Shown here: positions 5,015 through 13,397 of the stretch, in pieces
Layout of the letters: the number at the start of each line of letters is the position of its first letter
How positions within the stretch are numbered: position 1 is the stretch's first letter
Assembly: GCA_028386065.3 (NCBI GenBank)
Contig: JAKUCV010003074.1
Span: forward strand, 1 to 64,000
Length of the DNA: 64,000 nt
From: Turnera subulata
Taxonomy: Eukaryota; Streptophyta; Magnoliopsida; Malpighiales; Passifloraceae
Direction: 5' to 3'
Notes under the pieces: generated by a model
The model's database searches: none
The model's input: only the letters and a program-made list of their open reading frames with translations
Told to the model about the DNA's origin: nothing
Position numbers and translations under genes: made by a program

Positions 5015-5588
5015 TGTTAGATATGTGGGCTGAATGTTTCTTTGGTAAAAAAAAAACACACCCAAAGCTGCAAAAGAAGACAAAAAAGATTAGCACCCAA
5101 ATTTAGAAATTAAGCACCCATTTGTTGAAGTTTTGATGATTCATTCCCTATATATAAAGAATGAAATCCATCTGCAAAAACACAACTCACAGAAAAGAAA
5201 GTGAGTGTGAGGTAAAGGAGAATAGGCAGAGAAGAAAAGAAAGTGAGAGGGAAAGAGAGAGGGAGAGAGAAAGAAAATTTAGTCCTTCTATTTTTATGAA
5301 GAAGAAGTTTAGTCCTTCTATTTTTAGGAAGAAGAAGTTTAGTCCTTTTAAATTTCAAAAGTGACAAAATAGTCTCTCTTATTTAGTGAGTGACAAAATA
5401 GTGAGAAAATACTTTTGGGGTATTTTAGAGAAACACTATTTGTGAGATACTATCTCTCTTTGTAAGACTAATATTTTTATATTAGTGGAACCTTTGAAGA
5501 TCGTGGACGTAGGCAAGATTAAGGCCGAACCACGTTAAATTCTTTGTCTATTTTTATTTTTCGCGAATCTTTTACAGTTTATCCAACA
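5015..5588 (+). repeat. 3' LTR of the gag-only copia element
   Basis: Direct repeat of 2966-3542, beginning TGTTAGATATGTGGGC and ending ATCCAACA. A few substitutions and short indels separate the two LTRs, so the insertion is not brand new but clearly postdates the P450 duplication. Confidence 0.9.
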
Positions 5589-6189
5589 CAACTTTCTTAC
5601 CTAAAAGGTGTAATTATAGAGGCATTGAGATTGCAAGCACCAGGTCCATTGTTGCTCCCGAGAGAAACAACCCATCAGTGCAACATAGGAGTGTATAAAA
5701 TACCACCCAAAACTGCATGGGCAATCGGGAGGGATCCCGAGTCTTGGGAGAATCCATTACAGTTCAATCCGGACAGATTCTTGGGCAGTTCTGTTGACTT
5801 TAAAGGACGAGATTTTGAGTTTATACCATTCGGTGCTGGTCGAAGAATCTGTCCTGGTATGCTTTTGGGAATTTCCGGCGTGGAGCTTCCACTTGCAAAT
5901 CTTCTCTACAAATTTGATTGGGAAACGCCAGATGGGATGACGAGGGAAGATATAGATATTGATAAATGTCTTAACAGGCATTGTAATTCGCAAAAAGGAT
6001 GCTCTAGTCCTTGTCCCAAAGGCCTACATATGACGATGCCATAAAAAAAGGGTCATTTTGAAATAAATATCTTATCCGAACACTATCAATTTTTTTATGC
6101 TAATTGAGAAATTTATTCATACTGTAAATATATGTACAAGTAAGAAGTTGACAAGCACATGTACAAGTATGCATAAAACGCCGCCATAA

Positions 6190-6770: not shown

Positions 6771-7909
6771 GTTGAAACGAATATCTTATCCTGTGTACTA
6801 TTGTAAGAAGGTTCATAACTAAAATATACGTGTGTTATATATGTTTATGTATGTAATTGTTTTGATCATATCATTAATAGAATTCAACTGTTCCGTAAAA
6901 AAATTTAAAATAAGCAAGCGGATCAACCAATGCTTGTGAAGTTGTGACTTTGTAGGAGAGTGGAGCAGCAGCCTAGAAGATTCAAGAAGAATGTGGCTGG
7001 TGGTGAAGGCAGAGATTCACATGTACAGGGTGGTTCATGAGGGTTGTGTTGACCGGGATGAGAAAGAAAGATGATGAAGATGTTGGAATTTTTCATTTTT
7101 TGCCGGTGTTGAGGGGTGTCATGTGGTGCTACTAAGTGATATAAAAGGTAGCTGGAGCCTGGAGCTAATTTATACCCACTTGTTGGCGTTAATAAATCAT
7201 ACTATATAAAGGTAGCTGAAGCTAATTTCTTTCTTTTTTGGTTGAATTCAGAATTTTACCCCGACTCATTTTGAACTACATATAAGTTATGTACCGGGAT
7301 ATGTATGGTGAGTGAGTGAGTATCTTGCATACAAACTCAATACTTACGTGAATAGAACCGAGTGGCTTACAACTCACAATGGAATTCATTTTCAGATAAA
7401 AACAAATAAATAAATAAATAAGAATCTACTCCCGCGTGCACGCATGGGATTGCATCCGTCAGTTCCGTCGTCTGTCCCACAGGAGAATGCGAAATAATAC
7501 CAGGAAGCCTTTGATGGGTAATTGGAAATATAGGACGCTGAAGATTGGGGGGGATAGAAAGGCTAAATTTAATCTGATGAGTAGGATGTTACTATAAAAA
7601 AAAATGTCTTTACATGGAAAGTTTAACTACAAATAAATTTAATCTGATGAGTAGGATGTTACAATTAAAAAAAAAATGTCATTACATGGGAAGTTTAACT
7701 ACAAATGTTTCTATCAAAAAAAAAAAAAAACTACAAATGTATTTCGGTTGCCAACACTTGCGGTGGCATCTCCAAATAAAAGAAGCATGACCGTCATTTA
7801 CTGGTTATGAGTTTATGGGTATTTTCCAACGTGGAGCTATCACTTGTTAATTAATCTTCCCTACAAATTTATTTGGGAAGTGCGTTGCCAAATAAGGAAA
7901 GAAATAGAT
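6771..7909. other. P450-1 downstream flank with a tandem repeat
   Basis: There is no gene. The stretch 6900-7020 matches the downstream flanks of other P450 copies (the GCGGATCAA...CAAGAAGA block is seen again at 27540-27610). At 7562-7735 a unit of about 75 bp, beginning AATTTAATCTGATGAGTAGG and ending TTTAACTACAAAT, is present twice in tandem. Confidence 0.5.
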
Positions 7910-7914
7910 AAAAG

Positions 7915-8133
7915 TGTTATAAATATTGAGTAATCATATGAAGAAAATTGTTGATGAAGAAGGAAAGAAGATGAAGAGGAGAAGAAGAAAGGCAAAATGC
8001 AGCCTTGCTCGGTTGTATATTTCACACACAATTACTCTGTGTATATTACATAATATATGGAAGAAAACAAAGAGGGGAAGATGGGCCAAGTTAGGTAGGT
8101 AGACATCCACAATAAAACACATGTTTTATAACA
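7915..8133 (-). repeat. 3' LTR of copia element A
   Basis: 219 bp. It is a direct repeat of 12995-13213, with one visible difference in the portion I compared (ATATATGG against ATATATAG near 8058). The near-identity means the insertion is young, although the interior is heavily degenerate. That suggests a defective copy moved in trans. Confidence 0.92.
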
Positions 8134-8159
8134 CTCTCCCTTGGATGTCATTGTGTATT

Positions 8160-8650
8160 GGATAGAATATGCTCAGGGAGAACTGCCTCATTAAGTACAA
8201 ATACATAGTGCATATATGCAATTATACTACATATACTCAAATTTGGTTTAAACCATATCAAGATCAGTTTTAGCTTAATTTTGTATATTCCTGGGAATTA
8301 GTTGCTTCAAGCAACTTGAATCCTTCAGGGATTCTCATGAATATGTCATGACTTATGGATCCATATAAATATAGTCTGTAATGGCATCCATCTGATGCAT
8401 TTCCAATTCTTTTCATATAATGTCAGACTTTATCAAAAATAATTGCATCCACCACAGGGGAGTATACCTCCTCACAATTAATACTAAATCGTTTGGGTAA
8501 AACCTTGTGCAATAAGCCGTGCTTTGTATTTCTCTATTTTAATTCTCTTTTCGCACAAATACCCATTTTATGACCGATAATTTTACACCATCTGGTGTAC
8601 GGACTACAGGTCCGAAAATTCCTCGCTTTACAAGCGAGTCTAACACAGCC
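8160..8650 (-). pseudogene. Reverse transcriptase remnant of copia element A
   Basis: On the minus strand the pieces KARLIAQGF..., EEVYSPVVDAI and LYLYGSISHDIFMRIPEGFK line up with the conserved copia reverse transcriptase entry ([25 protein letters not shown]). Frame changes and stops lie between the pieces, and the catalytic YVDD block was not found. The product cannot be functional. Confidence 0.75.
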
Positions 8651-9309
8651 TACATTCAACTTGCGCCTACATTCATCAACAGGTGTAGGTTCATGATCCT
8701 CATTTTCTTTCATAATATTTAGCGCTATATAAAGTAAATATTCCGTCGACGGTTATTTTACGTCGGTTCCATCTTATTTCTGACACTGTAATTGAGATCT
8801 CATCATACTCATTTATTTCAGGTACCTGAGTTACTTCTGGAACTTTATCAATTGTCTCAGAAAACCTCTTCTGGAGGACATTTAATATGAACCTCTATTG
8901 GAGGCCTTATTTTCTCACTGGGGCCATCTTATCTCTTTTGCTCCTTTCTCTCTTATCTAGAATTTTGTTTTCTTTTGGAACCGAGTATATTCTACGCTTC
9001 TGGCGTACTTTGGATTCATTTGCATACTATACTTGTTCTTCTGGAACATTAATTTTTGAACAGGAGCATTTGCAGCTGGTATATAAGATTTGGTCACTTT
9101 ATATGTCTGGCAATTGCATATCAATTTCCTGGAAATGAATCATCTTTTGAACTTCAGGTTCACACTTATTTGTTTGAGGATCAACAGCTATATATTGATA
9201 ATGCATTTCAATAATCTCTTGATCCAGCTGCTTATTTTCTCCCCCTGATGTTGGGTAAACTCTTTCATCAAATTAACAATAAACAAATCTCCAATCATTA
9301 GTCAACGAT

Positions 9310-9640
9310 TTCAATTACTTTGTAATTGATGGAGATTTTTATACCCAACCGGTCATGCCAAACAATGGACCATCTAGTCGATGCATCATGAAAATTACCT
9401 AGATGGTCAACACGACGAATTTATTAATCCGGCATTCATGTCCCTGTATTATTCCCAAACTTGCTGGTGATTCTAGGCCAATCTCATCTTAAGAAGGCCG
9501 CACAATTAATTTCGCAGCAAACAAACACATGGAAATTCATTGATTGTAAAACTTCTGGTTTTTCAATGAATGATCCAATAAATTTCGTGCATCATTATTG
9601 ACCCGAGATGGCCCAACCGGTCATGCCAAACAATAATTCC
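9310..9640 (-). pseudogene. GAG-pre-integrase/integrase remnant of copia element A
   Basis: On the minus strand WHDRLGHLGSIMMHEI is the hallmark of the GAG-pre-integrase zinc domain (LWHxRLGHxG). NEFPCV and KMRLA follow at the spacing of the HHCC integrase zinc finger and its linker. A second partial copy of the segment that reads TTGTTTGGCATGACCGGTTG on the minus strand lies near 9340. Stops interrupt both. Confidence 0.75.
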
Positions 9641-10069
9641 ATGTACCAACTTCAAGTTGGTGCCAGCTTCAGGCTGCTATTTATGTGCCAACTTCAGATT
9701 GGTGCACAGTAGCTATAAATTACGTATCTATCAGCCAACTTCTAGTTGCTCTCAGCTTCAGGCTGTATAAACTTATGTATTTAAACACTTAAAATTTCTA
9801 GCTTCAGGCTAGAGCATTTCAGCTTCTGGCTGGATATGTTAAGTTTCAATTACTCAATTGCTAGCTTCAGGCTAGCTATATATGTGCCAGTTTTAGGCTT
9901 ATTTCTGCCACTCATGTCGAAAAATATCAGAATTATTGGACAATAATTAAAGTAGTGGCAAACTTTTCCAAAAGCAAAAACCTCGAAGATTGAAAAGCTT
10001 TGGAGTTTACTAACAAATAATGCAAAGTTTTAATTACCGAAAAATCTTCTGGATCTTTTCAGAGACAGA

Positions 10070-10870
10070 AAAAGGGTCCACATTTGAAAAACTGACACCT
10101 AGCTGTCTAATCTCAGACTATAAGAAGGGGAGGCAGTTGAGACAGGAAGATGCAAAAAACTCAGAAAAACTCAACAAGACAAGAAAAATGCCTTCCCCAG
10201 CTACTGTTTTCTTTGTTGAGGGTGCCTCTTTAGGAAGAAGGAATAGGTTAGCTTATAGCATGGTGAATGTGTAGCAAGAGGAATTACCGAATGATCTGGC
10301 GAGAATTCCTCGTTTAGTGTTTGTTGATGAACTTTATTCATCTAGGTTCTTTGTAACTCCTATGGAAGAAACATTCTTCCTAGAGGACCAAAGCAATCTA
10401 AGGGCTTCCTTTTATGGCTCGGCTAACTCTATTATGTTTTTCATATCTAATAGACTGCAGGAATTTCAGCTAGAGCCTTCATGTCAAATTTTAAATCAAA
10501 GCAGTTATTATTAGGTTTCCATGATGGCTTGGAGCGTCCCAAGGGTGACTGGGTTACCACCTACATGGCCTAAGGTACGACTTTTACTGTGGAATTGCAG
10601 GGGTGTAGCAAGAAGGTCCCAAGACTTTATGCGTACCTTAAGGGATCTGAAGATTCAGTACAAGCCTAACATGGTACTGATTACTGAGACTTTGTGGCAA
10701 GCAGGAGAGAATCATGGTGTGATTCTACTTCGTTTTCCTCCAACAAATCGGTTTGAGATACCTGGAGAAAACAACATGGGTGGTATGTGGTTCTCCTGGA
10801 ACGACAGTGTTAGGGTCAACATTAATGGTGAGGCTCAGAGTTTCAGGGTTAATGTTGAACCCAACAGATA
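10070..10870 (+). pseudogene. LINE ORF2 endonuclease fragment nested in copia A
   Basis: The frame 10521-10871 gives KVRLLLWNCRGVARRSQDF followed by KPNMVLITETLW. This is the N-terminal apurinic-like endonuclease start of plant L1 ORF2 proteins (LLxWNCRG, then the LxETx strand carrying a catalytic glutamate). It ends after about 116 codons, before the rest of the endonuclease and the reverse transcriptase. The bases 10070-10515 upstream look like LINE spacer or the end of ORF1 but show no domain I can name. Its + orientation is opposite to the host copia. Confidence 0.7.
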
Positions 10871-11719
10871 GATTACTTGTTTAAACATATGTATGAGAGC
10901 CATTCTTCCTTGAATGTTCTCCAGTTATGGATCCGTTTATGCAATAATAATATGCATGTTCGCGTTGAGCCTTTTCCATTTATTATCTCATTTACGCCCA
11001 CAGGCACAAATAATTATACTATCTTATTCGCTTCAGGGAATAGATCAGAGTCAATTCATCGGGATCCATAATAATTCATTTTATTACTAGGGGTGTTTTA
11101 TACTCTTCAAGAATATATGCTCTTCCAGAGCGTAAATATACGATCTTCTAGATCATATTTAAAACATGCGTTCTTCAGGAACATATTCGAATTTATGCTC
11201 TTCTGGAGCGTGTTAATCTTTTTCTCATTTCGAGATATCATAATATGTTATATTGACATCCACACATATAATTCTCCCCCTGTGGATGTCAATTTTGCAT
11301 TGTCTTAGAGACTAATGCTTGAGGCATTATTCTAGAAACAATTATAAAGTACTGAAAAGTAATTGAAATAAAATGCAATGCGTAATAATTTAAACTGAAT
11401 ATAAAATAAATTGAATATAAAATGAATTGTTAAGCAAGTATAATATCCACCTTCTGGTGGTCATATAATTTCCATCTTCTGGTGGTAATAGTTTTTATTT
11501 TCGATTTTCCTTTGAAGGATCTTCAGGATCTTTTGAACGGTAAGACTTCCAGTCTTCGTTGTATTTTTTTTTATTGAGTCTGCTGGACTCTTATATTTAG
11601 TCTTCCAGACTATATGTAAATTCCTGTCCGCATTTAATACCCACAATAAATTTCTTCTGGAAATTATAAGGGTCTCGAATAACATAATTTAAATAAAATT
11701 AAAAACTTAAATGAAAGAA

Positions 11720-11975
11720 ATAAACATGGGCCTTTCGTTAATTAGCCCAATGAAGAATTAAATAACCGAAAAATTAAAAGCAATGGGCCTTACATAAATT
11801 AGCCCAATTAAAAATTAAATTATCGCAAAGTAAATGCGATGGGCCTTATACGAGCCCAATAAAATCGTAAGGAAATTAAAACGAGAAATTAAATACAATG
11901 GGCCTTATATGAGCCCAATTGAAATGTGAAGAACAGAATATTAAAATGTAATGGGCCTAATATGAGCCCAAGCTT
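11720..11975. repeat. Five spaced TGGGC...GCCCA inverted units
   Basis: Five units at about 11727, 11784, 11839, 11899 and 11952 each have TGGGCC, then 7-15 AT-rich bases, then GCCCA. They are spaced 53-60 bp apart in A-rich DNA. Examples are TGGGCCTTATATGAGCCCA and TGGGCCTAATATGAGCCCA. They lie in the leader side of copia element A. TGGGCC is also the core of plant site II promoter elements bound by TCP factors, so a transcriptional role for the element is possible. Confidence 0.7.
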
Positions 11976-12239
11976 AATATAAATGAAAAACAATAAAAAT
12001 GAATACAATAGCCTTCCGGGCTTGCAAGGAAAAATCCCGAGACACTGAATTTCGGCCAAACACTTCCGGGCTTGCCGGAAAAAAAAACCAAGGTATCGGA
12101 TTCCGACCAAACACTTCTGGCTTGCCGGGAAAAACCCGAGATGCGAAATTTCGGCAATATAAATTCTTCTTTTTTTTCTTTTTCTTTTCCTTTTCTTTTC
12201 TCTTTTCTCTCTTCCCTATTTTTTTTTTTTTGGCTGGGA

Positions 12240-12994
12240 TGAACAGTGCCTGGACTAGGCATGAACAGTGCAGCCCAGCAGCACAGTGCCAGGCCCAGCT
12301 GCACAACCCATGCCCTGCACCCAAACCCAAGGAAATCGGCCCATCAGCCCACGACCCAGTTGTCGGGTCAAACCCGTTAAAAAAAAAACTGGTCGTCTTC
12401 AACCCCACGAGTCACTTCGGCAAATGCAAGGCGGCTGCGTGTGACGAGGCGGAGACAGGTGGTGGAATATGGCGCTGATGGCGGCGTCTCGAGAGCGGCA
12501 GGAGGCGAGGGAGAAGGTCGCTGTGGGCGGATCGACAGGGGCAGGACTGCGAGACGGTTGTATCGTCGTTGGCGGGCTGCAGCGAGGCGGTGGCGGCATC
12601 GCGTCTCCTACTGGTGGCGGAGGGAAGGGCGGCAAATTGCAGCAGAACGGCGGCAACCTGTGGTTGCGACTGCTGCGCTTTCTTTCGGCGACGAGGAGGA
12701 GGGCAGACCCGACGGGTCTTGCCGGGTTGCGGGCGTGGCCGTCGGGTTTCCTCACCCCGGCGGCGCGTCAGGCGGTGGAAAGGGACGGAGAAGACGTCGG
12801 GCGGTAGGCGACGGCGCGGGGAGGAGAGTGTTGCCGGCGGTGAGACGAGCAGGGGCCCGAAACATCACACGGTGAACAGTAACCGTGAGGGGGTGCAATG
12901 CATCTTCTTCGTTTTGGTTTGATTTTTCTGTCTTCTTTCTTTCTTCTCTTTGCCGGTTTTCTTCTTCGGGTAGGAGCACATCGCGCTGATAACG
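12240..12994 (-). other. GC-rich leader of copia element A with primer-binding-like site
   Basis: This stretch is much richer in GC than the rest of the window. Long overlapping frames occur on both strands (for example 12399-12755 minus and 12441-12875 plus), but none matches a protein I know, and their arginine- and proline-rich composition is what GC-rich non-coding DNA gives. It ends at the LTR with ATCGCGCTGATAACG, which on the minus strand is the primer-binding-like site. A related leader (with CTGTGAGACGGGAGACGGC) lies at 32827-33046, joined to a related LTR, so the arrangement belongs to the family. Confidence 0.6.
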
Positions 12995-13213
12995 TGTTAT
13001 AAATATTGAGTAATCATATGAAGAAAATTGTTGATGAAGAAGGAAAGAAGATGAAGAGGAGAAGAAGAAAGGCAAAATGCAGCCTTGCTCGGTTGTATAT
13101 TTCACACACAATTACTCTGTGTATATTACATAATATATAGAAGAAAACAAAGAGGGGAAGATGGGCCAAGTTAGGTAGGTAGACATCCACAATAAAACAC
13201 ATGTTTTATAACA
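12995..13213 (-). repeat. 5' LTR of copia element A
   Basis: 219 bp, starting TGTTATAAATATTGAG and ending ATGTTTTATAACA on the + strand. It is the upstream LTR in the element's own minus-strand orientation, because the primer-binding-like site abuts it at 12980-12994. Confidence 0.92.
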
Positions 13214-13397
13214 AAAAGGAATTAAAAAACTTTTTGATAGAATTAGACAACAGATCTATGAACCCATATAAAAGCTAGTTGGGCCTAACTTCTATCTATC
13301 CACGCGTCCACATTCATGAATGCACCGTCAGCTCCACTGATTGTTTCTGGTGTTGTAATGACACATTGAAACGAACGATAGCGAAGAAGAAAAATTA

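Follow-up and report, generated by a model that had tools for sequence, protein, structure and literature searches.

Short mobile hairpins with common loops and variable stems, which spread as units, are known from organelles as double-hairpin or palindromic elements. The interiors of large retrotransposon derivatives (LARDs) are said to have conserved structure, and in plants the choice of long terminal repeat (LTR) retrotransposon RNA for packaging, above all of non-autonomous RNA, is poorly known. About 30 short degenerate stem-loops are spread over the one genome of satellite tobacco necrosis virus (STNV), with loops of 4-6 bases; they have in common an AXXA loop motif, for which the coat protein has a preference (PMC3593212). 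In hepatitis B virus (HBV), several stem-loops with an RGAG loop motif are recognised by the core protein (PMC7612645), and in enterovirus E multiple sites of the genomic RNA have affinity for the capsomer (PMC7793301). Transposon-derived stem-loops were described in enod40, one of which resembles Ty1/copia near the integrase-reverse transcriptase (RT) codon region and is duplicated at 27 nucleotides (PMC10578108). In this study, positions 1 to 64,000 of contig JAKUCV010003074.1 of Turnera subulata, a stretch of 64,000 nucleotides (the window), were analysed. The window contains a copia-type LTR element with minus-strand sense (7911..13213), here named element A, without recognisable gag or full pol frames, whose interior holds an array of short hairpins with a constant loop and variable stems. 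The array is a nucleic-acid-level hairpin signal under selection, present as single units in open-frame relatives and as arrays in non-coding derivatives.

The unit was found to read C-[NNGAA]-G on the sense strand, on a stem of mostly 4-7 bp. An earlier note, made from the letters alone, had listed 19 examples; all 19 were recovered at their coordinates, the one at 9798 being part of a 6-bp stem that starts at 9797. Its total of about 26 is a fair one, made up of 23 regular units together with the variant loops at 8600 and 11576, an imperfect closing pair at 9688 and 6-base loops at 11447 and 11472. The sense loop it gave, CWGAA, covers the two commonest loops, CTGAA and CAGAA; the full rule is NNGAA, as TTGAA, TAGAA, TGGAA and CGGAA also occur. 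Dinucleotide shuffling, the check it had proposed, did not reproduce the counts. Between 8173 and 12990, 23 CTTCNNG hairpins of at least 4 bp were counted, with a mean of 0.11 and a largest value of 2 in 300 shuffles of that interval; for stems of at least 5 bp the count was 12 vs 0.02, and for at least 6 bp 6 vs 0.003. When the loop was not specified beforehand, 61 hairpins with a five-base loop were found in element A, 23 of which had CTTC as closing base and first three loop bases, the runner-up occurring twice. CTTCNNG sites were paired at 23/33 in element A and at 5/109 on both strands of the window remainder, counted outside a 300-bp margin around the element (Fisher 3e-14). CTTCWGG occurs 21 times on the plus strand of element A and not at all on the minus strand.

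The pairing was also assessed position by position at 28 of the 33 sites, leaving aside four beyond 11720 and one in a LINE-like (long interspersed nuclear element) piece. Stem positions 2, 3 and 4 were Watson-Crick at 24, 24 and 26 sites, with 8.7, 9.1 and 7.1 expected when arms were dealt among the units of element A. All four pair types were seen at each of these positions and no G.T; with partners slid by 1-3 bases, just 2-11 of the 28 sites paired. Several stems lengthen once G.U is allowed on one strand or the other.

Querying the 518.7-Mb genome with the LTR gave 28 places, and 20 stretches were fetched around most of them. Fifteen of the 20 had 7-22 paired motifs on one strand and the other five had 0-4. 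On the opposite strand 13 of these 15 had none, L161 had one and L164 six, and both of the latter hold inverted family pieces by BLAST; this orientation count used a slightly wider slice of the window with 34 motifs. In the 15 other copies 244 of 481 motifs were paired, on 25 different four-base stems, with loops CTGAA (93), CAGAA (56), TTGAA (23), TAGAA (19), TGGAA (17), CGGAA (14) and six others (22 together). Over 18 copies, a set that leaves out L152, L153, L154, L156, L161, L162, L163, L164 and L166, C..GAAG was paired at 291/575 sites and 11 of 12 control motifs at 0-9%. The twelfth control, the one-base variant C..GTAG, was paired at 23/71 sites. An NNGTA loop variant thus pairs unusually often, at 8600-8614 in element A and at C..GTAG sites in other copies. 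G.T at stem positions 2-4 was present over the 18 copies, under expectation.

The family extends well beyond the fetched stretches. A 311-bp cluster piece gave 2048 first-look candidates in the genome, of which 40 were scored, and a three-motif pattern had 2167 matches genome-wide vs 67 for its reversed control. A few of the listed pattern matches belong to an unrelated GTGCGC-rich repeat, a GC-rich tandem array of CTTCTGGGTGCGCC units (G000:C68:138289, C132:55788 and C191:56091). LTR-like pairs of 92-99% identity were present in 9 of the 16 sequences that were examined, and L149, L158, L159 and L160 have 5-bp target repeats, which indicates separate, fairly recent insertions; L160 and L167 have the same left flank and may therefore be one insertion represented twice in the assembly, not independent ones. 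The related element L189 (G000:C107:341500-348500) has LTR-like repeats of about 507 bp (93%) and 20 of its 41 motifs paired, so more than one LTR type can accompany the array. L190 is unrelated. All family comparisons were made within one genome.

Orthologous hairpins line up across the copies in the alignment, and the data support selection that keeps the hairpins while the surrounding sequence decays. In the non-coding clusters the per-site difference, measured among the other copies with the window copy excluded, was 0.071 for arms, 0.094 for GAA, 0.199 for the first two loop bases and 0.175 for spacers; an arm-spacer difference as large was reached by 0/105 circular label shifts, which ignore the phylogeny of the copies. 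The cluster divergence, compensation, deviation and isolated-hairpin or context analyses omit L152, L153, L162 and L163, and the BLAST alignments to element A favour well-aligning copies. GAA was well kept in two of the clusters (0.066 and 0.057). Outside CpG-like contexts arms stood at 0.071 (A/T) and 0.073 (G/C) and spacers at 0.168 and 0.202; arms being lower in each base and context class, the constraint is not one of base composition or CpG decay. When 16 close copies were added, a 30-sequence alignment of 9600-9910 gave 0.054 for arms and 0.099 for spacers. The family alignment that the earlier note had called for thus showed arms about 2.5 times more conserved than spacers, a few compensatory pairs and no free variation of the arms.

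In the ex-coding part, where L152, L153, L154, L156, L162 and L163 were omitted and L166 kept, arms differed at 0.074, GAA at 0.027 and the rest at 0.134, a difference reached by 4/464 shifts. The integrase-end frame has at least one stop in each of 13/13 aligned copies, L166 not being among them as it has 171/171 gaps there. No third-position excess was found, and no phase was clearly more variable in 4/4 ex-coding stretches; in the RT stretch (8280-8420) one phase was lower, at 0.093 vs 0.146 and 0.144. Three of four isolated hairpins (9552, 9152 and 8868) were more conserved than their flanks. Double changes at orthologous pairs amounted to 19 cells vs 2.9 expected, nine of which are paired. 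The pair at 11602 is A-T in element A and C-G in L149 and L151, and the outer pair at 9802 is T-A in element A, A-T in L149 and L151 and A.C in seven others.

Open-frame relatives carry the same unit. None of the 150 scored out of 3100 integrase-end candidates has an open frame above 169 amino acids, and many of these 150 have no stop within the 57-amino-acid integrase-end piece. With an integrase piece of L188, a more complete relative, as query, seven of the 150 scored out of 6299 candidates had open frames of more than 1000 amino acids; these are more distant relatives, and stretches were fetched for two of them, L192 and L193. In L193, whose 1501 bases are open from end to end in one frame, 4/5 motifs are paired, and in L192 3/4 are, two of the three lying upstream of its long open stretch. 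The two are 96% alike and therefore not independent. The paired motifs of L193 are spread over all of the codon phases (SGR, PEA, SLK, LEV), and synonymous-codon shuffles with protein and codon usage fixed had a mean of 0.34 paired motifs, with 0/2000 reaching four. Together with the ex-coding constraint, these shuffles show that coding fails to explain the hairpin set as a whole. The units of L192 and L193 include one with a GCTC stem and one or two with a CAGC stem; in non-coding copies these two types form the 11.1-kb and 9.7-kb clusters. The commonest unit spacings over 18 copies include 17, 23, 25, 18 and 27, and L149 has five CAGC units spaced 23-25 bases apart. From these data we infer that the clusters may have arisen by tandem duplication of units that stood singly in a coding ancestor.

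The hairpins probably serve the element as a recognition signal in many copies. Loop bases 3-5 and the arms are conserved even as stems differ from one unit to the next, from which it would follow that a protein reads the loop; kept arms, kept loop bases 3-5, one orientation, dispersed units and presence in both open frames and non-coding copies together suggest a loop-reading factor. The mechanism we prefer is that the genomic RNA carries scattered binding sites read by their loops, which would most likely be packaging signals. Put in full, the array would be a structural signal, repeated and acting in cis, that belongs to a Ty1/copia lineage and favours particle assembly, its loop probably being read by a protein; we advance this proposal tentatively and at something short of an even chance. 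A short Watson-Crick stem of almost free sequence would serve as mere scaffold to present the constant loop to its reader, which may be a protein of the mobilising element, with Gag as first candidate, or a host RNA-binding protein. Single units, which sit within open-frame stretches of related coding elements, would have been multiplied by tandem duplication in abundant non-coding derivatives such as element A, and selection would retain arms and GAA against the decay seen in spacers and dead codons. With many dispersed copies, the RNA could be favoured as cargo in particle assembly and reverse transcription, which would help a gag-less element to compete for another element's particles; packaging of gag-less RNA in foreign particles might then explain why the signal was amplified in derivatives. 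A bolder version, on the doubtful side, holds that a plant-type copia lineage uses the C-NNGAA-G loop code, spread along its RNA, as packaging signals and that the arrays of its gag-less derivatives out-compete the coding element.

Several observations weigh against the packaging proposal or its RNA basis. On the sense strand, G.U-type deviations account for 15 events (28 cells) vs 22 events (32 cells) for A.C; G.U being no commoner than A.C, there is no signature of sense-RNA selection. Folding in the three clusters is more unusual for the antisense strand (z -3.8, -4.3 and -4.3) than for the sense strand (-2.1, -2.9 and -2.9). Compensation is modest, with four paired types of double change vs three unpaired; one of the four, the 9650 change in L167, was not recovered in the MAFFT alignment, and in the 30-sequence MAFFT alignment two Watson-Crick states occur at a single pair, the outermost one at 9802. 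In the 11440-11670 cluster GAA (0.150) is hardly below the spacer (0.187), and the unit at 12010 is less conserved than its flanks (0.100 vs 0.042). The RT arms (8280-8450) show no extra conservation, at 0.132 vs 0.115 for the rest, and the caution of the earlier note, by which the two hairpins near 8300 may be due to coding pressure, stands for this reason. Element A itself has no recognisable gag, and the evidence comes from a single genome. Selection on RNA folding, one of the two readings that the earlier note gave of the array, therefore divides into two parts: selection is supported, by the shuffles and by the conserved arms, whereas that it acts on RNA folding is no more than likely, the G.U and A.C counts and the slightly better antisense folds speaking against a firmer statement. 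A DNA or antisense form may be the selected one.

A selected RNA signal could also serve another use, such as control of translation or frame, nuclear export, stability, localisation or an altered view of the transcript by small-RNA silencing. The constraint and orientation data suit any loop-reading RNA factor, packaging or not; the dispersal of copies across most of the interior, however, exceeds what a single regulatory switch would need, and we regard this reading as possible but rather unlikely. To our knowledge, no tRNA-like arm or known tetraloop fits the units.

Strand switching in reverse transcription or replication might instead restore short palindromes round a fixed core at the DNA level, with no function for the hairpin. 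Stems that are almost purely Watson-Crick and in element A lack G.T at positions 2-4, about equal numbers of G.U and A.C deviations and tandem-like spacing, as in the CAGC units of L149, would all suit such a process. Correction of this kind preserves pairing and not the sequence of the arms, yet arm sequence is conserved, as are three of the four isolated hairpins relative to their flanks; the loop is conserved and oriented, and the open-frame L193 shows an excess against a fixed protein. DNA-level copying is thus improbable as the whole explanation. The copying process that the earlier note had offered as an alternative would not by itself conserve arm sequences, and retains a part in that the arrays appear to have grown by tandem copying.

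The units might also be bound as DNA, either double-stranded or as single-stranded cDNA, for instance by integrase or a host factor. Such binding sites would agree with the strand-neutral pair deviations and with the 11.1-kb cluster, in which either strand, as single-stranded DNA, gives better folds than shuffles do (z -2.2 and -2.3). The variable stems speak against ordinary sequence-specific recognition of a duplex, and we consider such sites quite improbable. A heat-shock element was set aside by inspection, as the heat-shock-like TTCNNGAA is formed by a part of the observed stems only.

If the units were remnants of a Pro-Glu repeat (CCN GAA Gxx) encoded in the polyprotein, those that read PE in former frames (VPEE, PEA, IPEGF) would be accounted for; this origin is very improbable, since coding cannot create arm complementarity, the cluster units of element A fall in mixed reading frames, and the motif of L193 exceeds synonymous shuffles and is not confined to one codon phase, on which ground this candidate was rejected. 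Chance or composition has practically no standing and was rejected on the shuffle counts, the window-remainder sites (23/33 vs 5/109), the genome-wide pattern (2167 vs 67) and the control motifs.

All hairpins of element A are given here on the minus strand, with sense loops. Two 6-bp hairpins lie over RT codons: 8300..8316 (loop TTGAA, 12 aligned copies) and 8318..8334 (CTGAA, over RIPEGF), the latter with pair 5 changed from A-T to G-C in L155, L158, L159 and L161. They are followed by the variant at 8600..8614 (5 bp, CTGTA), a 4-bp hairpin at 8865..8877 (CAGAA; hairpin 0.051 vs flanks 0.105) and 5-bp hairpins at 8993..9007 (CAGAA, missing in the aligned L155, L158, L159 and L161), 9034..9048 (CAGAA, CTGAA in 10/13 aligned copies), 9148..9162 (CTGAA, arms and GAA invariant in 13/13 aligned copies and the hairpin also present in the open-frame L192 and L193) and 9548..9562 (CAGAA, in former pre-integrase codons; hairpin 0.033 vs flanks 0.122). 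The cluster of CAGC, CAAC and TAGC hairpins at 9645..9876 (arm 0.073 vs spacer 0.173 among other copies) consists of units at 9645-9661, 9664-9676, 9688-9702 (imperfect), 9736-9748, 9753-9765, 9797-9813, 9820-9832 and 9860-9876. A short hairpin at 10044..10054 has 3 perfect bp in element A and 7 in L156. The cluster at 11119..11209 (arm 0.050 vs spacer 0.142) has units at 11119-11131, 11142-11154, 11170-11182 and 11197-11209; a unit at 11105 is broken in element A and paired in other copies. The third cluster, 11447..11665 (arm 0.077 vs spacer 0.187, but GAA 0.150), comprises 11447-11460 and 11472-11485 (both with 6-base loops), 11518-11530, 11542-11556, 11576-11590, 11598-11612 and 11649-11665. 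An outlying 4-bp hairpin with loop CGGAA lies at 12010..12022 (hairpin 0.100 vs flanks 0.042).

Element A is bounded by a 5' LTR at 12991..13213 and a 3' LTR at 7911..8133, both on the minus strand and 223 bp long by comparison of the pair, which are 99% identical over 223 bp (99.1% in a second measurement). By eye, the 5-bp AAAAG flanks the element on either side, and on the minus strand a primer-binding-site-like (PBS-like) sequence is found after one LTR and a purine tract before the other. Former codons, also seen by eye on the minus strand, run from pre-integrase (around 9600) through the integrase end (around 9270-9100) to RT (around 8700-8300), an order from which the minus strand was taken as sense. 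No intact gag or pol frame was found in element A, sense pol-like pieces being about 40-72 amino acids long, and in Pfam none of nine tested window pieces gave a copia domain. Its copia domain order therefore rests on alignment to L188, which matches element A at 72-80% in several stretches and has gag_pre-integrs (E 1.8e-5), SH3_retrovirus (2.7e-4) and RVT_2 (8.8e-9) in copia order; of these RVT_2 alone is above the curated cut-off, gag_pre-integrs scoring 24.8 bits vs 28.4 and SH3_retrovirus also lying below. With paired LTRs, a 5-bp target duplication and integrase upstream of RT, element A fits a Ty1/copia LTR retrotransposon, and with no intact gag or pol frame and recent multiple copies it fits a non-autonomous LTR derivative of the LARD type.

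Other features were seen in and around element A. An antisense LINE-like piece with a weak match to an endonuclease (E 0.14) lies at about 10060-10905; in 8/20 fetched stretches (L150, L155-L159, L165 and L168) BLAST matches span its full length, so it appears to be a subfamily component and not a private insertion. An exact 23-bp direct repeat occurs at 9344-9366 and 9612-9634, 268 bp apart, over the pre-integrase WHDRLG codons. On the leader side, about three diverged 50-bp tandem repeats with CTTCCGG...CCGG were found at 12013-12155. Five spaced TGGGC...GCCCA inverted pairs at 11726-11980 have constant arms and variable inner sequence, the reverse design of the hairpin array; their TGGGCY resembles the site II elements of plant promoters. 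Elsewhere in the window, at 1457-37000, P450-like gene copies and fragments are arranged in tandem, as judged from direct repeats and, by eye, a haem-binding motif in the open reading frame at 5544-6044.

Searches outside the family gave little. Rfam over 7900-13250 returned two microRNA models, with E 0.61 and 0.82, far under their gathering scores. A related-locus pattern search of viral contigs gave seven matches, none confirmed; pre-integrase patterns had no match in viral or genome contigs, the RT pattern none in genome contigs, and a plasmid search for relatives none. A protein search with an integrase piece of L188 gave 18 unnamed fragments, which were not used. The triple motif was found in at least 120 stretches of viral contigs, and hairpins were counted in those 120. 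Five of the best-scoring stretches (L089, L076, L069, L045 and L050) have dense C-TTCNG-G hairpins; among up to 25 listed for each, the stems are GTTC, GAAC, GTAC or GATC, some of them 1-2 bases longer. L089, the one translated, is a Gly-Thr/Ser-Ser-Gly coding repeat; given this repeat and the narrow stem set, the viral matches were rejected as relatives and are a coding coincidence. They make a useful negative control for the motif.

A loop signal so abundant, short and strictly defined, and under a constraint that can be measured, is a direct candidate for the cis signal by which retrotransposon RNA is chosen for packaging. If a Gag reads the loop, assembly mediated by packaging signals would no longer be confined to RNA viruses but would include retrotransposons, and one could measure how non-coding elements parasitise coding ones. 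The bolder version, if true, would make the array the retrotransposon equivalent of virus assembly mediated by packaging signals; a single genome would show an arms race, and gag-less array elements that out-compete the coding element would explain the thousands of copies. If the array is a by-product of copying, it would be a clear natural record of palindrome formation in reverse transcription.

Compared with described systems, the hairpins differ from organelle double-hairpin elements, which belong to organelle DNA, in being parts of one LTR element family. Element A resembles LARDs and other non-autonomous LTR elements in its LTRs, PBS-like and purine-tract-like sequences, non-coding interior and many copies, and the fixed-loop hairpin array of its family sets it apart from LARDs as described in the searched literature. 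No fixed-loop, variable-stem hairpin array in an LTR element was found among the literature titles and abstracts listed, a coverage that mostly excludes subscription papers, where a description may exist. The enod40 insertions are likewise plant transposon-derived stem-loops, but they are extended ones within a host long non-coding RNA, and the available part of that account has no constant loop with variable stems (PMC10578108). The loop motifs of HBV and enterovirus E, as far as their accounts were available, differ from the one found here, and the protein contacts are experimental in those viruses whereas the present array is known from sequence. Two properties of packaging signals, stem-loops that share a loop motif on variable stems and conservation at the nucleic-acid level among variants, were both found in the family of element A. 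The closest parallel among these partly available sources is STNV, with its many short stem-loops, common loop motif and variable stems; STNV is a virus with measured coat-protein binding, whereas element A is a retrotransposon whose array has a fixed 5-base NNGAA loop, a C-G closing pair and strong clustering.

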